A stretch of DNA of 64,000 bases from a virus: positions 124,001-188,000 of the IMG/VR virus record IMGVR_UViG_3300044957_000763; one strand, given 5' to 3'. Position 1 is the stretch's first letter; every line of letters begins with the position of its first letter. This document shows, in pieces, positions 20,131 to 55,575 of this stretch. Below the pieces are notes generated by a model, which saw only the letters and a list, made by a program, of their open reading frames with translations, was not told the DNA's origin and made no database searches. The translations under genes were made by a program, and so were the position numbers.

Positions 20131-20485
20131 GGGCGTGTAAGGGAGTCGATTGGCACTCTAACTTATCGTTGCAAGGCGTGGATGTATCCTTGGCCACGTA
20201 AAAATGGATGCAAAAAGTAAATGCGAATAACAACTTCGCACTCGCGGTCTAAGACATCGTGACATGAAGCGGATGTGAGTCAGTAACGTCCGTGGATTGC
20301 AGCCAAATCTGAATAGGCTCAAAGCACTTCTGTTCGTAGTGCCAGAGATGAAAAACAATCGAACTGGTGATGGAACGGGTTGGCCTTTTCCAAAGTCTGT
20401 CACGAGAAAAGAATAGAGGAGAACCTTGTGGTAGTGATAGGGTAAGGTGAACAACAACGCGGTTCAATTCCGCGCACGTCCACCA
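20131..20485 (+). ncRNA. ssrA: Transfer-messenger RNA (tmRNA)
   Basis: 355 bases. The ends pair as a tRNA acceptor (GGGCGTG with CACGTCC), keeping the G3-U70 pair that marks alanine identity. A T-arm (CGCGG-TTCAATT-CCGCG) and an encoded CCA follow. The message part has the usual AGTAAAT context before the resume codon. The predicted tag is ANNNFALAV followed by TAA, ending in -LAV rather than the common -LAA. tmRNA frees stalled ribosomes and tags the products for Clp proteolysis. This phage also encodes ClpS and ClpC. One-piece form, not permuted. Confidence 0.93.
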
Positions 20486-33727: not shown

Positions 33728-33803
33728 GCTCCAGTAGCTCAACGACAGAGCGGAGGTCTCTAACACCTCGACTGAGTGGGTTCAACTCCCACCTGGAGCA
33801 CCA
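33728..33803 (+). tRNA. Amber suppressor tRNA (anticodon CTA)
   Basis: Acceptor GCTCCAG/CTGGAGC, D-arm GCTCAACGACAGAGC, anticodon arm GAGGT-CTCTAAC-ACCTC, T-arm GTGGG-TTCAACT-CCCAC, A73, encoded CCA. The loop has normal T33 and A37, so it should read UAG. All stems are perfect. The amino acid it carries is not assignable by eye. Confidence 0.88.
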
Positions 33804-33808
33804 AATTT

Positions 33809-34288
33809 ATGCAAGTATTCGTACCATCAACTGATATGCGCGAAAGCGTTAGAGTGTTAGATACTCTAAGATTGCGAAAGCAATTGTTAGAGTGCGTGGG
33901 GATTTTGTCGATTCTTCACAATCTTCCAAAGGCAGACGGCTCTCCGCGCAAAGGGCATCTCAATCATCCAGCAGTGCTTCAATGGAAATACTGGCCTGGT
34001 TGCTTGGCGACGTATGCCATGATGTGCGTGGAAGAACTTGAATCTCGTGGATTTTTCTCGGAAAAGATGCGTACTTCTGCCGAGGCATTTCAGACCGATG
34101 ACAACAAACCAGTTTGGTGGGGTGATGAGCAAGTTCATTCAACACATCGAAGTCGACTGCTACAAAAAGACCCTGTACACTACGGTCAATTCAATTGGGA
34201 AGAGATGAATCAAGAACCGCAGTCATATTGGTGGGCTATTCCATCGAGTAAATCTGAGTACAACTTGGAGCGCAGAGGTAAATCATGA
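33809..34288 (+). CDS. Pyrimidine-dimer DNA glycosylase-family protein
   Basis: 159 residues starting MQVFVPSTDMRESVRVLD. The N-terminal pattern (F.P..D...S..VLD..RL.KQ...), then NHPAVLQWKY and later STHRSRLLQKDPVHYGQF, matches the family annotated as pyrimidine-dimer glycosylase/endonuclease V relatives in actinobacteria and phages. That would make it a UV-damage repair enzyme; catalysis is not proven from sequence. The start lies 5 bases after the suppressor tRNA's CCA. The stop overlaps the next ATG (ATGA). Confidence 0.65.
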   Translation: MQVFVPSTDMRESVRVLDTLRLRKQLLECVGILSILHNLPKADGSPRKGHLNHPAVLQWKYWPGCLATYAMMCVEELESRGFFSEKMRTSAEAFQTDDNKPVWWGDEQVHSTHRSRLLQKDPVHYGQFNWEEMNQEPQSYWWAIPSSKSEYNLERRGKS

Positions 34289-34761
34289 GGTTCATTTTCT
34301 TGGATATTGATGGTTGTCTGAATGACCGCACAATGATGTCAAATGGATTTTGTGGTATTGATGACGATAAAGTTGCGTTATTGAATCAAATTCTCTCGAA
34401 TCACGAGGATGTGTTCTTGGTGATTTCTTCTGCATGGCGATATATGTGCATAGCTAAAGATATGACTCTAAGAGGGTTTGAGGAAATGTTGTTGACCCAC
34501 GGTGTAGACTGCTACGGTCGTGTCCATGGTATTACATCTCCAGATGAGAAATATTGGCCAGACATTCCAACAAGTGACGATTATGCAGACCTTACTGTTC
34601 GCGCTCGTCAAATTGAAGAATATGTACAACAACATAACCCACAATCATTTGTGGTATTTGATGATTTGGATTTACCAGTTGACAATATAGTCAAGACTGA
34701 TGGTCAAATTGGCTTAGAGCAACACCACATATACTCAGCTCTGAACATTTTATTTCAGTAG
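34285..34761 (+). CDS. HAD-family phosphatase-like protein
   Basis: 158 residues. HAD motifs: FLDIDGCLND (DxD, residues ~5-14), LVISSAWR (motif II, Ser) and FVVFDDLDL (motif IV acids). This short form corresponds to the HAD domain seen in bacterial and phage RNA-repair proteins. It may remove 3' phosphates from broken nucleic acids, possibly tRNA ends. Coupled to the upstream glycosylase-like gene by a 4-base overlap. Confidence 0.75.
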   Translation: MRFIFLDIDGCLNDRTMMSNGFCGIDDDKVALLNQILSNHEDVFLVISSAWRYMCIAKDMTLRGFEEMLLTHGVDCYGRVHGITSPDEKYWPDIPTSDDYADLTVRARQIEEYVQQHNPQSFVVFDDLDLPVDNIVKTDGQIGLEQHHIYSALNILFQ

Positions 34762-34772
34762 TTGAAGCCGTA

Positions 34773-34801
34773 TTGACAAACATTGGATTTGAGGATATAA
34801 T
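34773..34801 (+). promoter_or_regulatory. Perfect consensus promoter, leaderless type
   Basis: TTGACA, 17-base spacer, TATAAT, then 6 bases to the ATG at 34808. The predicted transcription start is the A of that ATG. Confidence 0.85.
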
Positions 34802-34807
34802 ATGAAC

Positions 34808-35296
34808 ATGCAAACCATTACCCTTTCTCGCGCACTTCAGGTCAAGAATCGCCTGGCTGAAAAAATCGCAGTTGCACAGAAGTTGGTGCAAGATTACAAC
34901 AGTAGCGTTGTAATCCCTGGACAGGCACCGGAGTTCAATGTGGCAGAGGTTTACAAACTCTATACCGAGCTACAGTATCGAATGGTCGATTTGAAAGACC
35001 GCATCAGCGAGGCAAATCGTCCTGTTCAGGCGACTATTTTCGAGCTTGCTGAGTTGAAAGGCCGCGTGCAGATGCTCAAGGGCTTGAACACGCGTAAAGG
35101 AAAGGAGTTTGCTAACTCGTATTCCATGTTTGATGACAGTGGTGAACCCAAGATGGTTGAGTACGTGGCAGTACTCGATAAGCAGTTCACTGCCGAAGAA
35201 ATTCGCGTTCTGCAGAATGAAATCGACAGTCGACAGGCTGACCTAGACCGCCACAATCATCAAACCATAATCGAATTTGATTTCGATTGGATGTAA
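34808..35296 (+). CDS. DIP1984-like coiled-coil protein
   Basis: 162 residues. The opening LSRALQVKNRLAEKIAVAQ, then LQYRMVDLKDRISEANRP, fits the DIP1984 family of small helical proteins (some named septicolysin-like). Mostly helical with heptad-like stretches; acidic C-terminus. Function unknown. The ATG at 34808 is preferred over 34802 because the latter directly abuts the -10 box. Confidence 0.6.
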   Translation: MQTITLSRALQVKNRLAEKIAVAQKLVQDYNSSVVIPGQAPEFNVAEVYKLYTELQYRMVDLKDRISEANRPVQATIFELAELKGRVQMLKGLNTRKGKEFANSYSMFDDSGEPKMVEYVAVLDKQFTAEEIRVLQNEIDSRQADLDRHNHQTIIEFDFDWM

Positions 35297-35592
35297 CGAT
35301 TTCGGCTTCGGTCGAAACTAGGGGTGTGTAAGTGAGATGCGAGCCAGGTGCACAATCAGTGTATGTCTGGGTTCACTTCGGTGAATAGAAAACAAGTAAC
35401 CACTTGAAATGGTGACTATTATGGCAAACTTGTTCCTGACTAGGACTTTGAATGTCAAGATGCAAGGTTCAATTTAGTCAAAATACAAGGCGCAAAACGC
35501 AAGTCTTAAGAATCAACATTCACTCGGTCTTACAAACCACCCCTTAGTATTTTGTTGAAGGTCGATTTTACACTTGTGTCGAACTGTTAATT
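35297..35592 (+). other. Non-coding region upstream of an HNH gene
   Basis: 296 bases with no gene. Hairpins: TTTCG-GCTTCGG-TCGAAA (35301-35318) and TTCAC-TTCG-GTGAA (near 35402-35415). GACTA (near 35441) can pair with TAGTC (near 35477), the spacing and words being loosely like helix P7 of group I introns; other intron core parts were not found. May be an RNA associated with the endonuclease gene. Confidence 0.35.
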
Positions 35593-36327
35593 ATGAGTTC
35601 GAAATACACACATCGACACGATGAAATTGTTCACTTGTGTAAAAACGCATTTACATTTTCAGAAGTCGAGCAACAGCTTGGTACATCAACACCAAACACC
35701 TCGCTTCGGAGATATATTAAGTTTCATAGCATACCAATGCCAAATTATTGCAGAGTTCGCGACGTTGATGATAATTTAGTAAAATATTATCAACCTATAC
35801 GAATTGAAGATTTGATAAATGGCATACGATTGTCAACGCATGCTGTAAAGAAATTTCTTTTTAAGAACGGTATCAAATCTCAAGAGTGTGAGATTTGCGG
35901 TTGGTGTGAACGACGTGCATCAAATGGAAAAATTCCAGTACACTTACATCACATTAACGGGAACCCATTTGATTGGACGATTGAAAATTTGCAGATTTTG
36001 TGCCCTAATCATCATGCACTCACTGATAATTTTGGTTCTCTGAATACAGGAAAAGGTTACATATTTGCAAATCGCCCAGCTACAACCAGGGCCCGCTTAG
36101 AGCACGAAACTAGCAATGCTTGTTTGTATTGCGCTTCTGCTTGTTCTTATAAGTCTAAATTTTGTTCTAGAGAGTGTCTATATATGAGTCAGCAAAAATG
36201 CATTAGACCAACTAAGGAACAATTAAAAGATGAGATAGCTAATAGCAACTGGATGGCTATTGGTCGCAAATATGGAGTGTCAGACAATGCTGTAAGAAAA
36301 TGGGCCAAGAAATATGGCATAATATAA
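35593..36327 (+). CDS. HNH homing endonuclease
   Basis: 244 residues. The HNH core is complete: CEICGWCERR, then VHLHHINGNPFDWTIENLQI, then LCPNHHALTDNF (residues ~95-155), with the paired His and Cys ligands. A second Cys cluster follows (CLYC...C..EC). The C-terminus has a helix-turn-helix (WMAIGRKYGVSDNAVRKWAK) for DNA recognition. It ends 2 bases before a tRNA gene, the sort of locus such free-standing endonucleases occupy. Confidence 0.85.
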   Translation: MSSKYTHRHDEIVHLCKNAFTFSEVEQQLGTSTPNTSLRRYIKFHSIPMPNYCRVRDVDDNLVKYYQPIRIEDLINGIRLSTHAVKKFLFKNGIKSQECEICGWCERRASNGKIPVHLHHINGNPFDWTIENLQILCPNHHALTDNFGSLNTGKGYIFANRPATTRARLEHETSNACLYCASACSYKSKFCSRECLYMSQQKCIRPTKEQLKDEIANSNWMAIGRKYGVSDNAVRKWAKKYGII

Positions 36328-36329
36328 TT

Positions 36330-36411
36330 GCCCCGTGGTTTGACGCTTGAGGCTTGAGCGATTGGTCCCTAAAACCAACAACAAAGGGTTCAACTCCCTC
36401 TCGGGGCGCCA
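36330..36411 (+). tRNA. Unusual tRNA with CTA in the anticodon position
   Basis: Acceptor GCCCCGT/TCGGGGC (last pair mismatched), D-like stem CGCT/AGCG, anticodon arm TTGGT-CCCTAAA-ACCAA, T-loop TTCAACT, G73, encoded CCA. Base 33 is C, not T, and there are 7 bases between acceptor and D-stem, so function is uncertain. If active it would read UAG; G73 is compatible with a Gln-type tRNA. Confidence 0.6.
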
Positions 36412-38577: not shown

Positions 38578-41500
38578 ATGTGGTACAGAACTATTGTAGC
38601 TGCAAGAAACGGCGTATATGTTTCAGAATTGAATTTACCAATCAATGAAACACTGCACGCAATTCTTGAGGATTTGAGGTCACAAGGATTTAAGGCCTTG
38701 GTGGTCGGCGGTGCTGTGCGAGACGCGGTGATGGGTGTGGTGCCCAAAGACATTGATGTTGAGGTTTATGGAGCAGACTATGACACTTTACACACAACAC
38801 TCACCAAATACGGTCGCGCCGACGTAGTTGGTAAAAGTTTTGGTGTGTTGAAGTTGCGCACGCCCGATGGTCAAGATTATGACTTTAGCGTTCCTCGGCG
38901 TGACAGTAAAACAGGAGATGGGCATACAGGGTTTAAAATTACTGTAGACCATACAATGACACCAGAGCAAGCGGCAGCCCGCCGCGATTTCACCATGAAT
39001 TGTTTTTCTGGAGAAACGAAAATATTGACCAAATCAGGACCGAAATCATTAATGGAATTATGTGGTCAACAATGTGAGGTGTTAGACGGAAACGGTGAGT
39101 GGACACACGCAGATGTTAGGTCGTTTGGTGTTCAAAAATTGTTAAAATTGACTGTTACCAGAAATAGAATTGTCAAAACGATTTATGCAACTCCAAATCA
39201 CAGATGGTTTATCAAGAATAAACACACATATGTTTTTGACCGCGAAAGAACGACTGAGAATTTGCGGTGCGGTCACATGCTTCCGTCTGTGTATCCAATT
39301 ATTCAATCTACACAATTAGACAATGAGTCTATTTGTAGGGGGTTTGTATTTGGTGACGGCAACATTGTTGTTTTTGACAGCGGGAATGCGGTGAGCATTG
39401 CTAATTTTTGCGGTGAAAAAGACTCACATTTATTACCTTTATTTGAAAAACTGGACATGGGTCGACCCCCTCATGATATCCCATCGGGCAAGCGCATCTC
39501 TTCTCTTCCGCCAAATTGGAAGTTAGAAACTCCAGAATTTTCTGAATCATATGAATATCTACTTGGGTGGTTGTCTGGTTATTTTGCCGCTGATGGTTGT
39601 GTAGACTCTAAGGGATGTCCTGTGTTGAGTTCTTGCAATAGGGAAAATCTTGAATATGTAGAGCAACTTTGCAGATGTGTTGGTATCGGTACATATCAAA
39701 TCAGTCAATGTAAAATTGGTTCTGGGTACAATTCAAAAAGTGAATGTTGGTCTTTGGGCTTTGTGCGCAAAACTTTGTTTTCTGATTTTTTTATTATTCC
39801 AGAGCACAGAAAAAGATTTAACTCTGCAACCAATAGTCGGAATCGAACTGCATGGAAGGTTGTTAGTGTTGATGATTCAGATAGGATTGAAGAGGTTTAT
39901 TGTGCTGTAGTGCCGACCACTCATACATTTTGCCTAGATGGCAATTTGTTGACATCAAATTGTCTTGCGTATGACCCGTTGACGTCTGAGATACATGACT
40001 ACTATGGTGGAATTGAGGACTTGGAGAACGGTGTGTTGCGCGCCACCACAGAGGCATTTAAGGAAGACCCTTTGCGTGTATTGCGCGGCATGCAATTCGC
40101 TGCCAGATACGGTATGCGTCTAGACCCTGACACTGCAAAGATGTGCAGGGAAATAGTCGATGCGCATGACGAGTTGGCAACTGAGCGCATTGCAGAAGAA
40201 TGGATGAAACTTGCCATTAAGGGAAAACAACCAGGAACCGCACTCGAATACTTGGCAGACACTGGATGGCTAAAGCATTATCCAGAGCTTGAGGCCATGT
40301 TCGATGTGCCCCAAGACCCAGAATGGCACCCGGAAGGCTGGGAGCACTTCGATGCACCAGAACACAAAAGAAACCTATATACCAAAGAAGACCAAAATGT
40401 ATCTCACTGGCAAGACGTTATTGGTTTTCGGGGCGACGCACCAAGCGGTAGTAAAATGGTCTCGACACCTTATAAGTCCACAAATCCAGAACGCCAGCAT
40501 GAGAACAGCCCAGAACCACACATTTATGTCACTATGGATGTTCCTATTGACAGCTATTGGAGATATGTGTACGAACAAGACAGAATTGATGCCAAACCTA
40601 TAGCCAACCTTGCTGTTAGACACTTAATGTCTCAATATGGTGGTGCCGAACTTAATGGCAAGACCCACTATCGTATGATTGGTTCATTGAAAGCCAGTCC
40701 AGCAGTGTATTGTCATGCCGAACGACAAGGTGACCATGTTGAATTGACCGTTGGGCTTCATAGTGAGTTGTCTAAGGAGTTGTTAGACCGTGGATGCCCA
40801 CTTCATGTTTATGTGAAAATGGGCGATGTAGCCACGCATACTGCACACGTGATGGATGCAGCCGCTGCAGTTGCAGAGCGAGACGGACTGATTGGTGATG
40901 ACAGGGCAACATTAGTACTTGCCGCTATGGTGCATGATATTGCCAAGCCACAGACCACAGAAATCCAGCAACGCGCCGGCAGGGGTATGTCTGTAACTTC
41001 GATTGGTCACGAAAAGGCCGGAGAACCAATTGCTGTAGACCTACTCAAAAGAATGGGCATTAAGAAGTCAATCAGGGATAAGGTTGGTCCAATGGTGGCA
41101 CGTCATTTGGCGCATGTTACCACGACCCCAACTAAGTCTAATGTGCGCAAGCTGGCTCGTGATATCGCACCAGCCAGCATTGAAGAACTTGCCAAGTTGA
41201 TTGAGGCCGACCATTCTGGTAGGCCACCATTGCCACAAGAGTTACCTCGTCAAGCCCAGGATATGTTGGATATTGCTAGAAAAGACGGTGTAGCCAACGG
41301 CAAGCCCGCACCAATTGTGCAAGGCAAGCATGTTCTGCCATATTACGGTGGCGCGTCAGGGAAACATATTGGTGAAGCGGTACAGGAAGCATATCGTGCA
41401 TACTTAAATGGTGCCTATGACAACTTTGAAGGTGGACAACAGTGGTTGAGCAATTATTTACAGTCTCGAGCCTCTATGCTTAGAGGTTCAGATGTTATAG

Positions 41501-41646
41501 CACTTGGTGTTAAACCCGGTCCAGTGATTGGTCAAATACTCAACGAGGCATGGCAAATGCAGATTGTGGGCACGTTCACGAGTCGTGAGGATGCTCTTGC
41601 TTGGCTGTCGAATCGAGTGAATTCTGACGCCACGTTAACGCAGTAG
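38578..41646 (+). CDS. cca: CCA-adding tRNA nucleotidyltransferase with intein
   Basis: 1,022 residues before splicing, about 702 after. The extein starts MWYRTIVAA and has the class II nucleotidyltransferase signature: ALVVGGAVRDAVMG (residues ~38-51), DIDVEVYG with the catalytic DxD, and RRDFTMN continuing after the intein as CLAYDPLTSEIHDYYGG. The arm EDPLRVLRGMQFAARYG follows, and an HD-type domain (VLAAMVHDIAKP, ~780) lies toward the C-terminus. The enzyme builds or repairs the CCA end of tRNAs. Several tRNAs in this window do not encode CCA, so the phage gene has clear work to do. A second domain between arm and HD is unrecognised. Confidence 0.88.
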   Translation: MWYRTIVAARNGVYVSELNLPINETLHAILEDLRSQGFKALVVGGAVRDAVMGVVPKDIDVEVYGADYDTLHTTLTKYGRADVVGKSFGVLKLRTPDGQDYDFSVPRRDSKTGDGHTGFKITVDHTMTPEQAAARRDFTMNCFSGETKILTKSGPKSLMELCGQQCEVLDGNGEWTHADVRSFGVQKLLKLTVTRNRIVKTIYATPNHRWFIKNKHTYVFDRERTTENLRCGHMLPSVYPIIQSTQLDNESICRGFVFGDGNIVVFDSGNAVSIANFCGEKDSHLLPLFEKLDMGRPPHDIPSGKRISSLPPNWKLETPEFSESYEYLLGWLSGYFAADGCVDSKGCPVLSSCNRENLEYVEQLCRCVGIGTYQISQCKIGSGYNSKSECWSLGFVRKTLFSDFFIIPEHRKRFNSATNSRNRTAWKVVSVDDSDRIEEVYCAVVPTTHTFCLDGNLLTSNCLAYDPLTSEIHDYYGGIEDLENGVLRATTEAFKEDPLRVLRGMQFAARYGMRLDPDTAKMCREIVDAHDELATERIAEEWMKLAIKGKQPGTALEYLADTGWLKHYPELEAMFDVPQDPEWHPEGWEHFDAPEHKRNLYTKEDQNVSHWQDVIGFRGDAPSGSKMVSTPYKSTNPERQHENSPEPHIYVTMDVPIDSYWRYVYEQDRIDAKPIANLAVRHLMSQYGGAELNGKTHYRMIGSLKASPAVYCHAERQGDHVELTVGLHSELSKELLDRGCPLHVYVKMGDVATHTAHVMDAAAAVAERDGLIGDDRATLVLAAMVHDIAKPQTTEIQQRAGRGMSVTSIGHEKAGEPIAVDLLKRMGIKKSIRDKVGPMVARHLAHVTTTPTKSNVRKLARDIAPASIEELAKLIEADHSGRPPLPQELPRQAQDMLDIARKDGVANGKPAPIVQGKHVLPYYGGASGKHIGEAVQEAYRAYLNGAYDNFEGGQQWLSNYLQSRASMLRGSDVIALGVKPGPVIGQILNEAWQMQIVGTFTSREDALAWLSNRVNSDATLTQ
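39001..39960 (+). other. Intein with LAGLIDADG endonuclease, inside cca
   Basis: 320 residues, from CFSGETKILTKSG to ...NLLTSN, followed by Cys of the C-extein. Splice signals: Cys1, block B ATPNHRWF, block F/G VVPTTHTFCLDGN and SN with terminal Asn, then Cys+1. Two dodecapeptide endonuclease motifs are seen: CRGFVFGDGNIV and LLGWLSGYFAADGCV. The insertion splits the RRDFTMN/CLAYDP motif of the nucleotidyltransferase, so the enzyme is inactive until splicing. Confidence 0.92.
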
Positions 41647-43802: not shown

Positions 43803-43879
43803 CCGTCGCTAGCTCAATGGTTAGTAGCAATTCCCTCTTAAGGAAAAGGTTCTGGGTTCAAGTCCCAGGCGACGGACCA
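43803..43879 (+). tRNA. tRNA-Lys (CTT)
   Basis: Acceptor CCGTCGC/GCGACGG, anticodon loop CTCTTAA in a TTCC/GGAA stem, T-arm CTGGG-TTCAAGT-CCCAG, encoded CCA. Confidence 0.88.
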
Positions 43880-43883
43880 ATAC

Positions 43884-43955
43884 CCCTCCGTGGCGCAAAG
43901 GCAGCGCAGGTGACTTTTAATTACTTGGTTACAGGTTCGAATCCTGTCGGGGGGA
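43884..43955 (+). tRNA. tRNA-Lys (TTT), CCA not encoded
   Basis: Acceptor CCCTCCG/CGGGGGG, D-arm GCGC-AAAGGCA-GCGC, anticodon arm GGTGA-CTTTTAA-TTACT, T-arm ACAGG-TTCGAAT-CCTGT, A73 followed by CACA. Confidence 0.85.
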
Positions 43956-43963
43956 CACAATTT

Positions 43964-44042
43964 GGCGGCTTAACTCAGTTGGGTCAAGAGTACTCGGCTT
44001 TTAACCGAGGGGTCGTGGGGTCCCAGTCCACAGTCGCCACCA
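43964..44042 (+). tRNA. tRNA-Lys (TTT), odd T-loop
   Basis: Acceptor GGCGGCT/AGTCGCC, anticodon arm CTCGG-CTTTTAA-CCGAG, encoded CCA. The T-loop reads GTCCCAG instead of TTCNANN, so the copy may be impaired. Confidence 0.75.
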
Positions 44043-44043
44043 A

Positions 44044-44955
44044 CTATCTGTACCACTTACTTGCCCCGACAACACCATTGGCCTTGGTTGACATAAGTTT
44101 CTTTAATACTGGCGCATCGTCATCCAACATATTGTGGTCTGCCTCCCAGTGGCAATTACCACACAAGATTAAAATGTTGTTTTTATGGTTGACTCTCCAT
44201 ACTTCTGTGCTTAATGGAAATTCTGGAATTGCAATGATGTGGCAAACCTCGGCGTGTTTTTTATATCCACAGTTTTCACAGCCCTCAATCACCTGGTTTT
44301 TGTATTGTGTTCTTGCTCTGCCTCGGACTTTTGCCCATTGTGCGGAGCGAAAATGGTTTGTAACTAGTGTGTCTTGCAAAGTGGATGAATCGAGCAAGAT
44401 GTTTTCTGATTCAATACATTGCTTACATTTCTTATTTTTGCCGGAGTGTAAATTTGAACACTTTACACAATTTTTTAACGGTTTCTTTAAGAAAGAAGTC
44501 GCCCACTTAGAAGAGCATTTTTTATCACAAAACAATTTCCCGCTTTTGGATTGTTTTAGCGATGTTTTTGTCTTGATAATTGATTTTCCACATGTGCCGC
44601 ACTGGGTTTCTATATATTGTTTTGACAATCTAAGTTTGTTATTGTATGTTGTAGAGCATTTGCGAGAACAGAATGAGTTATTGCATTTTGAGACGTCCTT
44701 GGAACTTTTGACTGCTGGTTCTCCGCAATTTACACACTTGATTAAATGCTTTTTTCTTCCCTTGGATAGTTGCTGGAATTGCGCACAACATTTTGTTGTG
44801 CAGAATGTGTTTCGATTATGTTTGATGTTTGATAACAGGTCGCCCTTTCTTTTATTAACTGTTGCCCCACAACCGATACATGTGATTGGCAACACATCAT
44901 TAGCTCTAAATTTATCTAAAAAATCTCTTGTGAGGTGTTGGTATTGATTCGACAT
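44044..44955 (-). CDS. Zinc-ribbon HNH homing endonuclease
   Basis: 303 residues. Four Cys-pair ribbons in tandem (CIGC...C..KC, CVNC...C..KC, CGTC...C..KC, CVKC...C..C) cover residues ~25-185. A C-terminal HNH domain follows: CENCGYKKHAEVCHIIAI, NHKNNILILCGNCHWEAD. This layout is typical of phage free-standing HNH endonucleases next to tRNAs. The gene ends 2 bases from the third tRNA-Lys. It lies between the tRNA-Lys genes and lysS, so it may have inserted into a tRNA-Lys/LysRS cassette. Confidence 0.85.
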   Translation of the reverse strand: MSNQYQHLTRDFLDKFRANDVLPITCIGCGATVNKRKGDLLSNIKHNRNTFCTTKCCAQFQQLSKGRKKHLIKCVNCGEPAVKSSKDVSKCNNSFCSRKCSTTYNNKLRLSKQYIETQCGTCGKSIIKTKTSLKQSKSGKLFCDKKCSSKWATSFLKKPLKNCVKCSNLHSGKNKKCKQCIESENILLDSSTLQDTLVTNHFRSAQWAKVRGRARTQYKNQVIEGCENCGYKKHAEVCHIIAIPEFPLSTEVWRVNHKNNILILCGNCHWEADHNMLDDDAPVLKKLMSTKANGVVGASKWYR

Positions 44956-45007
44956 AACATGGTATTATATCAAGAACCACTCGATTCCTACTACAATCAC
45001 TAAAATC

Positions 45008-46267
45008 ATGAACTATCTTAGAACTGTTTTTGCATCCGATATGCCCTTTGCGGCAGATAGAGAACTTGGAAACCAAGTCCTTTGTGGGCGAATTACCAAC
45101 GTGCGTAGGCAAGGTGGTGTTTGTTTCATTACAATCCAAGACCACACTGGCAGAACTCAACTATTCGGCCAGCGCAATGTACTTGGTGACCGATATACCG
45201 ACTTCTATCAAATGGGTGTTGGTGACATGGTGTATGCGCTTGGAAACATTGCACGCACTGTAGCCGGCGAACCAAGTCTGTTTGTATCTGACTTTGGAAT
45301 TGGTGGTGTTGCATATGACCGACCACCTCTAGGTCAGGTTACTCCAGACGGTGTTCGGATGAATGCTCTTGAGGACATTGAAGAGTGTCGAAGAAATCGA
45401 CATTTGGATATGATGTCGAATAGCGACACAATGTCGCGATTCGTGTCGCGTTCGCAGTTTATTAGCGACTTGCGTGCCTATCTTCGCGACATGGCCTATT
45501 TAGAAGTCGAGACACCAATTTTGCAAGAACAGGCCACTGGTGCCACTGCGTCTACGTTCAATACGTATCACAACGAAATGAACCAGGATATGCAGTTGCG
45601 AATCGCTCTTGAGATTCACCTCAAGCTATGCATTATGGGTGGATTAGACAGGGTATTTGAACTTGGTCGGGTTTTCAGAAACGAAGGTGTTAGTTCGCGT
45701 CACAATCCAGAGTTTACATTGTTAGAGATGTACGCTGCGTGGACTGGACTTGAGCACATGATGTCAGAAACTGAGCATATCGTCCGAATGGCATATGCTT
45801 CATTTGGCCGTGAATTGCCAGAATTCAGAGTTGCTACAATGGGCTCTCTGGTTGGTGATTCAGAAAATTTGATTGAAGATTTTGACAATCATATTGCACA
45901 CACGTTAGTTGAGCCGACGTTTGTTACAAATCATCCACTAAGCGATTCGCCTTTTGCTCAAGAGGACATTGCAATGCCTGGTACGGCTATGAGGTTTGAA
46001 CTCTATATCAATGGTGTAGAAGTTGCGAATGCCTATCAGGAAATCAATGATGCCGAAGAACAGGCTTCTCGTTTGAGATTGGATGATGGAACATTGGCAC
46101 CAATGGATGCGTATTTTGTCAACGCAATGCGAAATGGCATGCCGCCGACAAGCGGCCTCGGGATTGGTATTGACAGGCTAGTTATGCTTGCATCCAATTC
46201 TGCATCAATTCGTGACATCTTGTTGTTCCCGTCGATGAGAAATACAGGAGGGATTCCTATGTTGTAG
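45008..46267 (+). CDS. lysS: Lysyl-tRNA synthetase, class II
   Basis: 419 residues, shorter than the ~500 of bacterial LysRS; the N-terminal anticodon-binding OB fold is trimmed but present (NVRRQGGVCFITIQDHTG). Class II motifs: motif 1 FLEVETP-like (MAYLEVETPILQEQA), motif 2 VFELGRVFRNEGVSSRHNPEF, motif 3 GLGIGIDRLVML. LysRS-specific LRIALEIHLKLCIMGG and NGVEVANAYQEINDAEEQ are intact. It charges tRNA-Lys with lysine. Three tRNA-Lys genes lie 1 kb upstream, an unusual matched set for a phage. Confidence 0.95.
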   Translation: MNYLRTVFASDMPFAADRELGNQVLCGRITNVRRQGGVCFITIQDHTGRTQLFGQRNVLGDRYTDFYQMGVGDMVYALGNIARTVAGEPSLFVSDFGIGGVAYDRPPLGQVTPDGVRMNALEDIEECRRNRHLDMMSNSDTMSRFVSRSQFISDLRAYLRDMAYLEVETPILQEQATGATASTFNTYHNEMNQDMQLRIALEIHLKLCIMGGLDRVFELGRVFRNEGVSSRHNPEFTLLEMYAAWTGLEHMMSETEHIVRMAYASFGRELPEFRVATMGSLVGDSENLIEDFDNHIAHTLVEPTFVTNHPLSDSPFAQEDIAMPGTAMRFELYINGVEVANAYQEINDAEEQASRLRLDDGTLAPMDAYFVNAMRNGMPPTSGLGIGIDRLVMLASNSASIRDILLFPSMRNTGGIPML

Positions 46268-55367: not shown

Positions 55368-55575
55368 TGACGCGAGCCAATTAGTTGGCATGTCTGTTGG
55401 CAACGGTAAGTCCGAACTTACAGAAGCCCAACTTCAAAGTATCGCAACCGGACTTGGATATCGCACTGCGCAAATCAGAGACACCTTTTCGATGTATGAT
55501 TGTATGTACGATACAAGCCGGCTGCAAATTCATGTAGACGAACAGAAAAAAATTACATCAGTCCGCGTCGGCTAA
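55345..55575 (+). CDS. Small DUF1257-/DUF2997-like or unknown protein
   Basis: 76 residues (MKTKVQINDASQLVGMSVGN). A beta-strand start, a helix (TEAQLQSIATGLGYRTAQI) and a final strand pair (RLQIHVDEQKKITSVRVG). No family can be named with confidence. It overlaps the gene before it by 23 bases and the convergent release-factor gene by 23 bases. Confidence 0.45.
   Translation: MKTKVQINDASQLVGMSVGNGKSELTEAQLQSIATGLGYRTAQIRDTFSMYDCMYDTSRLQIHVDEQKKITSVRVG

Follow-up and report, generated by a model that had tools for sequence, protein, structure and literature searches.

We analysed a window of 64,000 bases, spanning bases 124001-188000 of the 478,840-base IMG/VR record IMGVR_UViG_3300044957_000763, which comes from a very large phage (GC 44.5%). 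Taken together, its sequence features are probably best explained by an orphan amber suppressor transfer RNA (tRNA) gene, with anticodon CTA, and by a gene for the phage's own release factor, whose full-length product would require ribosomes to pass an in-frame UGA. This RF1-like release factor is best read as the only stop-dependent gene that we found in the window. An earlier reading, made from the sequence only, had proposed that a stop codon within phage genes matters; this appears to hold for the TGA of the release factor and not for TAG, the codon that it had in mind.

The amber tRNA gene lies at positions 33728-33803 of the window, on the plus strand. ARAGORN, Rfam and a structure parse bore out the perfect stems and the loop CTCTAAC that the sequence-only reading had described: all four stems are fully paired, the loop reads C32 T33 C34 T35 A36 A37 C38, the discriminator is A73, the CCA end is encoded, and the match to RF00005 reaches 56.2 bits where the cut-off is 29 (E 2e-9 in a search of the window). 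The regularity claimed for it stands for stems and loop, and falls short in the D loop (AACGACA), where position 19 is A, not the second G of the usual G18G19 pair; the variable loop is 6 nucleotides long. The gene has the tRNA fold, CUA anticodon, U33 and encoded CCA of an amber suppressor, and is best explained as yielding a tRNA that would compete with RF1 at UAG. The label Pyl given by ARAGORN denotes the CTA anticodon, nothing more, and the single synthetase scored reached 29 bits against the PylS cut-off of 178 and 361-382 bits with lysyl-tRNA synthetase (LysRS) models, no genome-wide search for PylS having been made. Lysine is our best guess for the charging of the tRNA, considering A73, G1-C72, U35 and a phage LysRS nearby. 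The latter, a class II enzyme (45008-46267, plus strand; Pfam PF00152 4e-68, NCBIfam lysine--tRNA ligase 5e-114), is a candidate for this charging step. Several E. coli tRNAs, when converted to amber-reading forms, reportedly accept lysine or glutamine, a result attributed to Normanly and colleagues in 1990. In the window, LysRS is clustered with three Lys tRNAs (43803-46267), with an open reading frame (ORF) on the opposite strand between them (44044-44955). A single-isotype origin of the CTA tRNA was rejected: its closest non-CTA tRNAs are mixed, so that no isotype can be named as its origin. A pyrimidine dimer glycosylase ORF begins 6 nucleotides past the CCA, and no Rfam ribozyme family matched beside the tRNA at the gathering threshold.

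The second CUA tRNA that had been proposed (36330-36411, plus strand) fared less well. It is indeed tRNA-like, with CTA at the anticodon position, a 6-pair acceptor, a 5-pair anticodon stem, a T arm, G73 and CCA. It does not qualify as a working amber tRNA: the anticodon loop is CCCTAAA, with C33 in place of the near-universal U33 of tRNAs, T7 and T66 are unpaired, and the D region is over-long (25 nucleotides from acceptor to anticodon stem). ARAGORN, run on the window, called no tRNA there, and the sole Rfam match at E<=1 was a sub-threshold tRNA-Sec (22.1 bits against a cut-off of 47). This sequence is probably degenerate or specialised.

What could a UAG-reading tRNA act upon in this phage? 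Genome-wide figures cover the entire record, taken in successive pieces, and a simple gene finder called 504 genes over 90% of it. These end in TAA (273), TGA (128) or TAG (103, i.e. 20%), confirming genome-wide that many genes stop at TAG and that, as anticipated, there is no global recoding of a standard code. TAG is not shunned as a stop and displaced into genes as in code 15 (103 TAG stops, no two-sided coding excess), nor is TGA avoided as in code 4, given the 128 genes that end in it. Among extensions that do not enter another called gene, the median length after TAG, TAA and TGA was 10.5, 13 and 10 codons, the mean hexamer coding score -2.9, -3.1 and -3.1, and a further stop stood at most 5 codons downstream in 28%, 24% and 23% of cases, respectively. 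Coding signal flanked the stop on both sides in 16 TAG, 29 TGA and 45 TAA frames, and each of the nine TAG frames that enter a called gene has a start codon at most 7 codons away. Extension length, coding score, two-sided frames and start codons together led us to reject TAG read-through in phage genes. The suggestion that the suppressor extends chosen phage proteins was thus not supported: TAG extensions are neither longer nor more coding-like than those of TAA or TGA, and, as far as extensions are concerned, the genome-wide test for frames open through TAG went against it. One candidate TAG fusion (genome position 199786) was rejected, the downstream ORF having its own GTG start and reading as an HNH-type gene. 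Nothing suggests that the phage exploits, or protects itself against, UAG suppression. TAG stops are enriched near the tRNA islands (genome 140-180 kb and 200-220 kb; 28/75 against 75/429 genes, odds ratio 2.8, p 0.0003, GC alike), in bins that were picked after inspection.

Orphan amber tRNAs are known from other phages. XacN1 has two CUA tRNAs and no target for them (PMC5852040), Summit phage has an orphan amber suppressor tRNA (PMC9022506), and so do zeta crAss-like phages of clade 8, for which an anti-host role was proposed (PMC12386605). The phage studied here resembles them in that it has a CUA tRNA without amber recoding and without a recognisable target (PMC5852040, PMC9022506, PMC12386605), but differs in that TAG accounts for 20% of its stops and that it also has a TCA tRNA and its own release factor. 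It shares a phage-encoded CUA tRNA with code-15 phages, in which UAG encodes Gln (PMC9523058, PMC10879173), but its own TAG is not recoded. Because the phages of the literature show the same orphan state, we place the tRNA at 33728 with this known sort: it is one more case of the unexplained orphan amber tRNAs of phages that use TAG as a stop. Such tRNAs are not rare. A single anticodon/T-arm pattern matched at least 120 viral stretches, and ARAGORN called 72 CTA tRNAs in the first 80 matched loci, most of which contain long TAG-terminated frames. When the patterned parts were stripped, the best match was another CTA tRNA for 65 of 109 CTA tRNAs (20% of the pool); going by sequence, the viral CTA tRNAs may form one or few mobile lineages. 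U33 and A36A37 are near-invariant and A38 is present in most, against C38 in the tRNA at 33728; the loop is CTCTAAA in 101 of the 109, the search pattern itself having fixed CTCTAA. Many of these tRNAs (L034-L153) have G1-C72, C2-G71 and A73, and mismatches at C31-A39 and 27-43 are frequent. The pattern GAGGTCTCTAACACCTC gave two chance matches in viral contigs, neither of them a tRNA.

Two alternatives for the amber tRNA are about equally worth keeping, and neither is the reading that we would bet on. The tRNA could be a passenger, or decaying, with no decoding role. No UAG-dependent phage gene was found, G19 of the D loop is lost and the second copy is probably degenerate, but every stem of the tRNA at 33728 pairs and its CCA is encoded, and viral CTA tRNAs keep U33 and A36A37 and are widely retained in phages that use TAG as a stop (PMC12386605). 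It is likewise possible, if doubtful, that the tRNA acts against the host, by lengthening host proteins that end at UAG or by disturbing the host's responses, as proposed for the zeta crAss-like phages. This would fit the orphan suppressors that occur in phages whose UAG is not recoded (PMC5852040, PMC9022506, PMC12386605) and the presence of a transfer-messenger RNA (tmRNA) and a release factor in this phage, but a strong suppressor should penalise a genome in which 20% of the genes end in TAG without extra back-up stops.

The release factor gene (55553-56254, minus strand, 233 amino acids) came to attention through the list of two-sided coding frames, which held a TGA at genome position 180129 beside an RF-1 domain match. 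It encodes a phage class-I factor of RF1-like type (PF00472; NCBIfam release factor 1, 1.9e-51), with Protein Data Bank (PDB) matches to RF1 (3e-35, residues 6-206), RF2 (8e-22) and RFH (8e-12). Domain 1 is absent, the GGQ motif and RF domains 2-4 are present, and by these features the protein is a predicted class-I bacterial factor; at the aligned RF1 PxT position it has PPN, where most relatives have PPT. The TGA is codon 42 (56129-56131, minus strand), in the context CTC TGA CTA, and the assembly sequence at the site is CTCTGACTA. The translation runs MKHHNNSILVEIRSGEGGDDAK...ACKANKL-TGA-LEFIDERDG...GSGPGGQ..., with conserved protein on either side of the TGA, the frame unchanged past it and the gene intact down to its stop. 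The site thus departs from a frameshift of the prfB type: its context is CTC TGA CTA, it lacks a Shine-Dalgarno-like (SD-like) stretch and the frame is kept.

About 110 members of this release-factor family emerged from two alignment scans of viral contigs; those of code-4 megaphages, in which TGA stands at Trp positions, we kept apart. The features of a prfB-type frameshift are present in these viral relatives: 67 distinct contexts need a +1 shift, nearly all at the codon aligned with the window's TGA, with CTT before the stop in 67/67 and an SD-like stretch upstream in 59/67. The closest named relatives sit in huge phages, among them the 485-kb LR745208, which at the aligned codon has a classic prfB site (GGAGGGGT CTT TGA C, +1 shift). 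The stop at the +1 site is TGA in 54 contexts, TAG in 12 and TAA in 1. TAG members are scattered over a quick, unrooted tree of the family, which suggests separate switches, and the recognition loop is RF1-like in TGA and TAG members alike, so that the stop codon at the site does not track the predicted specificity; the loop is missing in the release factors L182 and L155. Two relatives, 44% and 43% identical to the window gene, have the in-frame TGA at the identical codon: L171 (CTA TGA CTG) and L182 (CTC TGA CTG). All three genes have Leu on both sides of the stop and C after the TGA, and none has a CTT slip codon or an SD-like stretch. They stand at different places in the unrooted tree, which suggests separate origins. 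Many genes on the L171 and L182 contigs stop at TGA (55/151 and 116/252, respectively), so that TGA is not a sense codon there. In a further clade, the TGA lies one codon earlier, mostly after Gly, at the Trp position of RF1; TGA stops in whole contigs of this clade are clearest in G058 (68/147), G054 (97/230), G056 (66/202) and G048 (33/104). What we observe is thus the sequence, the position of the TGA, its recurrence and a standard code. One relative on an AT-rich contig, L360, has an in-frame TAG instead of TGA, and could belong to a TAG-recoded phage or be a case of UAG read-through. Phages with the same release-factor family also carry ochre-type TTA tRNAs (L163 2630-2706 in LR745208; L308 in the L171 contig), and LR745208, an otherwise standard-code huge phage, has a tRNA for which ARAGORN gives a possible 4-base anticodon TTTA (L164 1333-1407).

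The recurrence of the TGA bears directly on whether it is real. We consider it unlikely that it reflects a sequencing or assembly error, such as a C lost after TGAC, or a dead gene. The sequence comes from a single assembly, and one base added after TGAC restores the usual frameshift layout of the family. However, L171 and L182, at 43-44% identity, share the in-frame TGA at this very codon, likewise flanked by Leu; the three genes lack the SD-like stretch found in 59/67 frameshift members as well as the CTT slip codon; and the gene is otherwise intact to its stop. It is more improbable still, and already disfavoured, that TGA is read as Trp, throughout the phage or in only some of its genes, in the manner of code-4 megaphages. 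Huge phages with TGA as Trp do hold near relatives of the release factor in which Trp positions are occupied by TGA, and the genome has an opal-type tRNA (anticodon TCA, genome 233368-233442, outside the window; 50 bits, with good anticodon and T arms), but 128 genes stop at TGA and have unremarkable extensions, the release factor has a single TGA, and relatives with the same in-frame TGA end many genes with this codon. Re-initiation past the TGA, with a short ArfB-like rescue protein and not a complete release factor as its product, is the least credible alternative: a GTG-started ORF of 140 amino acids (55975-55553) does contain the GGQ region, but no SD-like sequence precedes its GTG and the segment before the TGA is conserved protein family-wide.

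How does this compare with known release-factor genes that are interrupted by a stop? In 8,164 bacterial genomes, the prfB site is CTT TGA in 98.6% and CTT TAA in 1.4%, with no TAG (Prince et al. 2025, PMC12421855), and according to Atkins et al. (2016) an in-frame UGA past which the ORF continues unshifted occurs in no bacterial RF2 gene, a UAG counterpart for RF1 is not known, and no organism is known to use read-through in place of the shift (PMC5009743). As in bacterial prfB, which encodes RF2, the phage genes have an early stop in a release factor gene, in a weak UGA-C context, and the relatives use CTT, an SD-like stretch and a +1 shift. Unlike in prfB, the phage factor is RF1-like and lacks domain 1, the stop lies inside domain 2, TAG occurs in 12/67 phage relatives against 0/8,164 bacteria, and the window gene stays in the same frame. 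The R726/mg280 genes of Mimivirus and Megavirus combine UGA-C read-through with a +1 shift at CUU-UAG-C or CUU-UAA-C, with experimental support in the Mimivirus case (PMC3521657). They share with the phage family a viral class-I factor, in-frame UGA-C and CUU-stop +1 sites, but their factors are of the eukaryotic/archaeal type, in amoebal viruses, with both events in one gene, whereas the phage factors are of the bacterial type with one event per gene. The phage factor also resembles PrfH/RFH, the partner of RtcB (PMC1586002, PMC9223846), as a class-I factor with GGQ and without domain 1 in a genome that encodes RtcB. It is unlike PrfH/RFH in scoring 86 bits against a cut-off of 167 and in being closer to RF1, and the RtcB RNA ligase gene (genome 385082-386122) is not adjacent, lying about 205 kb from the release factor (about 179.6 kb). 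We found no account of the frameshift or read-through of this phage family in the open-licence literature, which is not proof of absence.

A ribosome reaching the UGA-C at codon 42 would either terminate or pass, and only passage in the unchanged frame would give the full-length release factor. UGA-C is a weak terminator, and slow termination at UGA would lead to more passage and more full-length factor. Since most relatives have a prfB-type +1 stop at the aligned position, we infer that the UGA has been kept as a termination sensor; the read-through itself, its level, the inserted amino acid and the regulation are likewise what we infer. Read-through of UGA usually inserts Trp via a near-cognate tRNA, and an alternative reader could be the TCA tRNA of the genome, despite its mismatched acceptor stem and missing CCA. 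RF1-type factors read UAA and UAG, so the UGA site would report on host RF2 and not on the phage's own product, unless the specificity of the phage factor is wider. As for the tRNA at 33728, UAG is still a normal stop and we found no UAG-dependent gene, so any action of it should be limited, whether by a low or moderate efficiency, by confinement to part of the infection, or by being directed at host genes. We claim no mechanism linking the CTA tRNA and the TGA of the release factor.

Several points weigh against this joint explanation. UGA is not read by RF1-type factors, which makes simple autoregulation by the gene's own product less than obvious for the UGA members. The SD-like stretch typical of the frameshift members is missing from the window gene, whose TGA is known from one metagenome assembly; a second copy was sought and none found. 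The TCA tRNA, a potential reader, has two acceptor mismatches and lacks an encoded CCA, and no convincing TCA tRNA was found on the complete L171 and L182 contigs. Finally, with the same pattern search, CTA tRNAs occur in 6/15 contigs with in-frame TGA and in 8/55 with a +1 shift (p 0.06), one of the latter eight being a poor tRNA; among contigs of at least 40 kb they occur in 6/12 with in-frame TGA (p 0.013), a cut chosen afterwards. This association is weak and we do not claim it.

The record holds other parts of a translation apparatus. ARAGORN identified 63 tRNA genes in the full record, covering all 20 amino acids, and a tmRNA (20131-20485, plus strand, tag ANNNFALAV; also matched by Rfam), which belongs to the phage's own ribosome-rescue equipment; Rfam gave 62 tRNA matches in the full record. 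The window also encodes a CCA-adding/poly(A) polymerase of 1022 amino acids (38578-41646), in which the inserted LAGLIDADG homing-endonuclease domain is probably an intein, and contains a perfect consensus promoter (TTGACA-17-TATAAT, 34773-34801, plus strand) upstream of an ORF at 34802. A search at the DNA level found no named phage close to the record, and megablast, LysRS, the CTA tRNA itself and the exact TGA site revealed no close relatives.

Overall, these phages appear to supply the cases missing in bacteria, the in-frame UGA and the TAG site, mirroring Mimivirus, and they open to direct testing the question of what is sensed by the stop codon of release-factor genes. Taken alone, the amber tRNA is an added example for the question of why phages with UAG as a stop retain UAG-reading tRNAs. 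More speculatively, and with rather low odds in our view, large standard-code phages might let release-factor synthesis sense termination via UGA, UAG or UAA, by +1 shift or read-through, together with CUA, UCA and UUA tRNAs, the tRNAs weakening host termination and the sensor raising the phage factor. If this were true, phages would set termination during infection through stop-anticodon tRNAs and a release-factor sensor.

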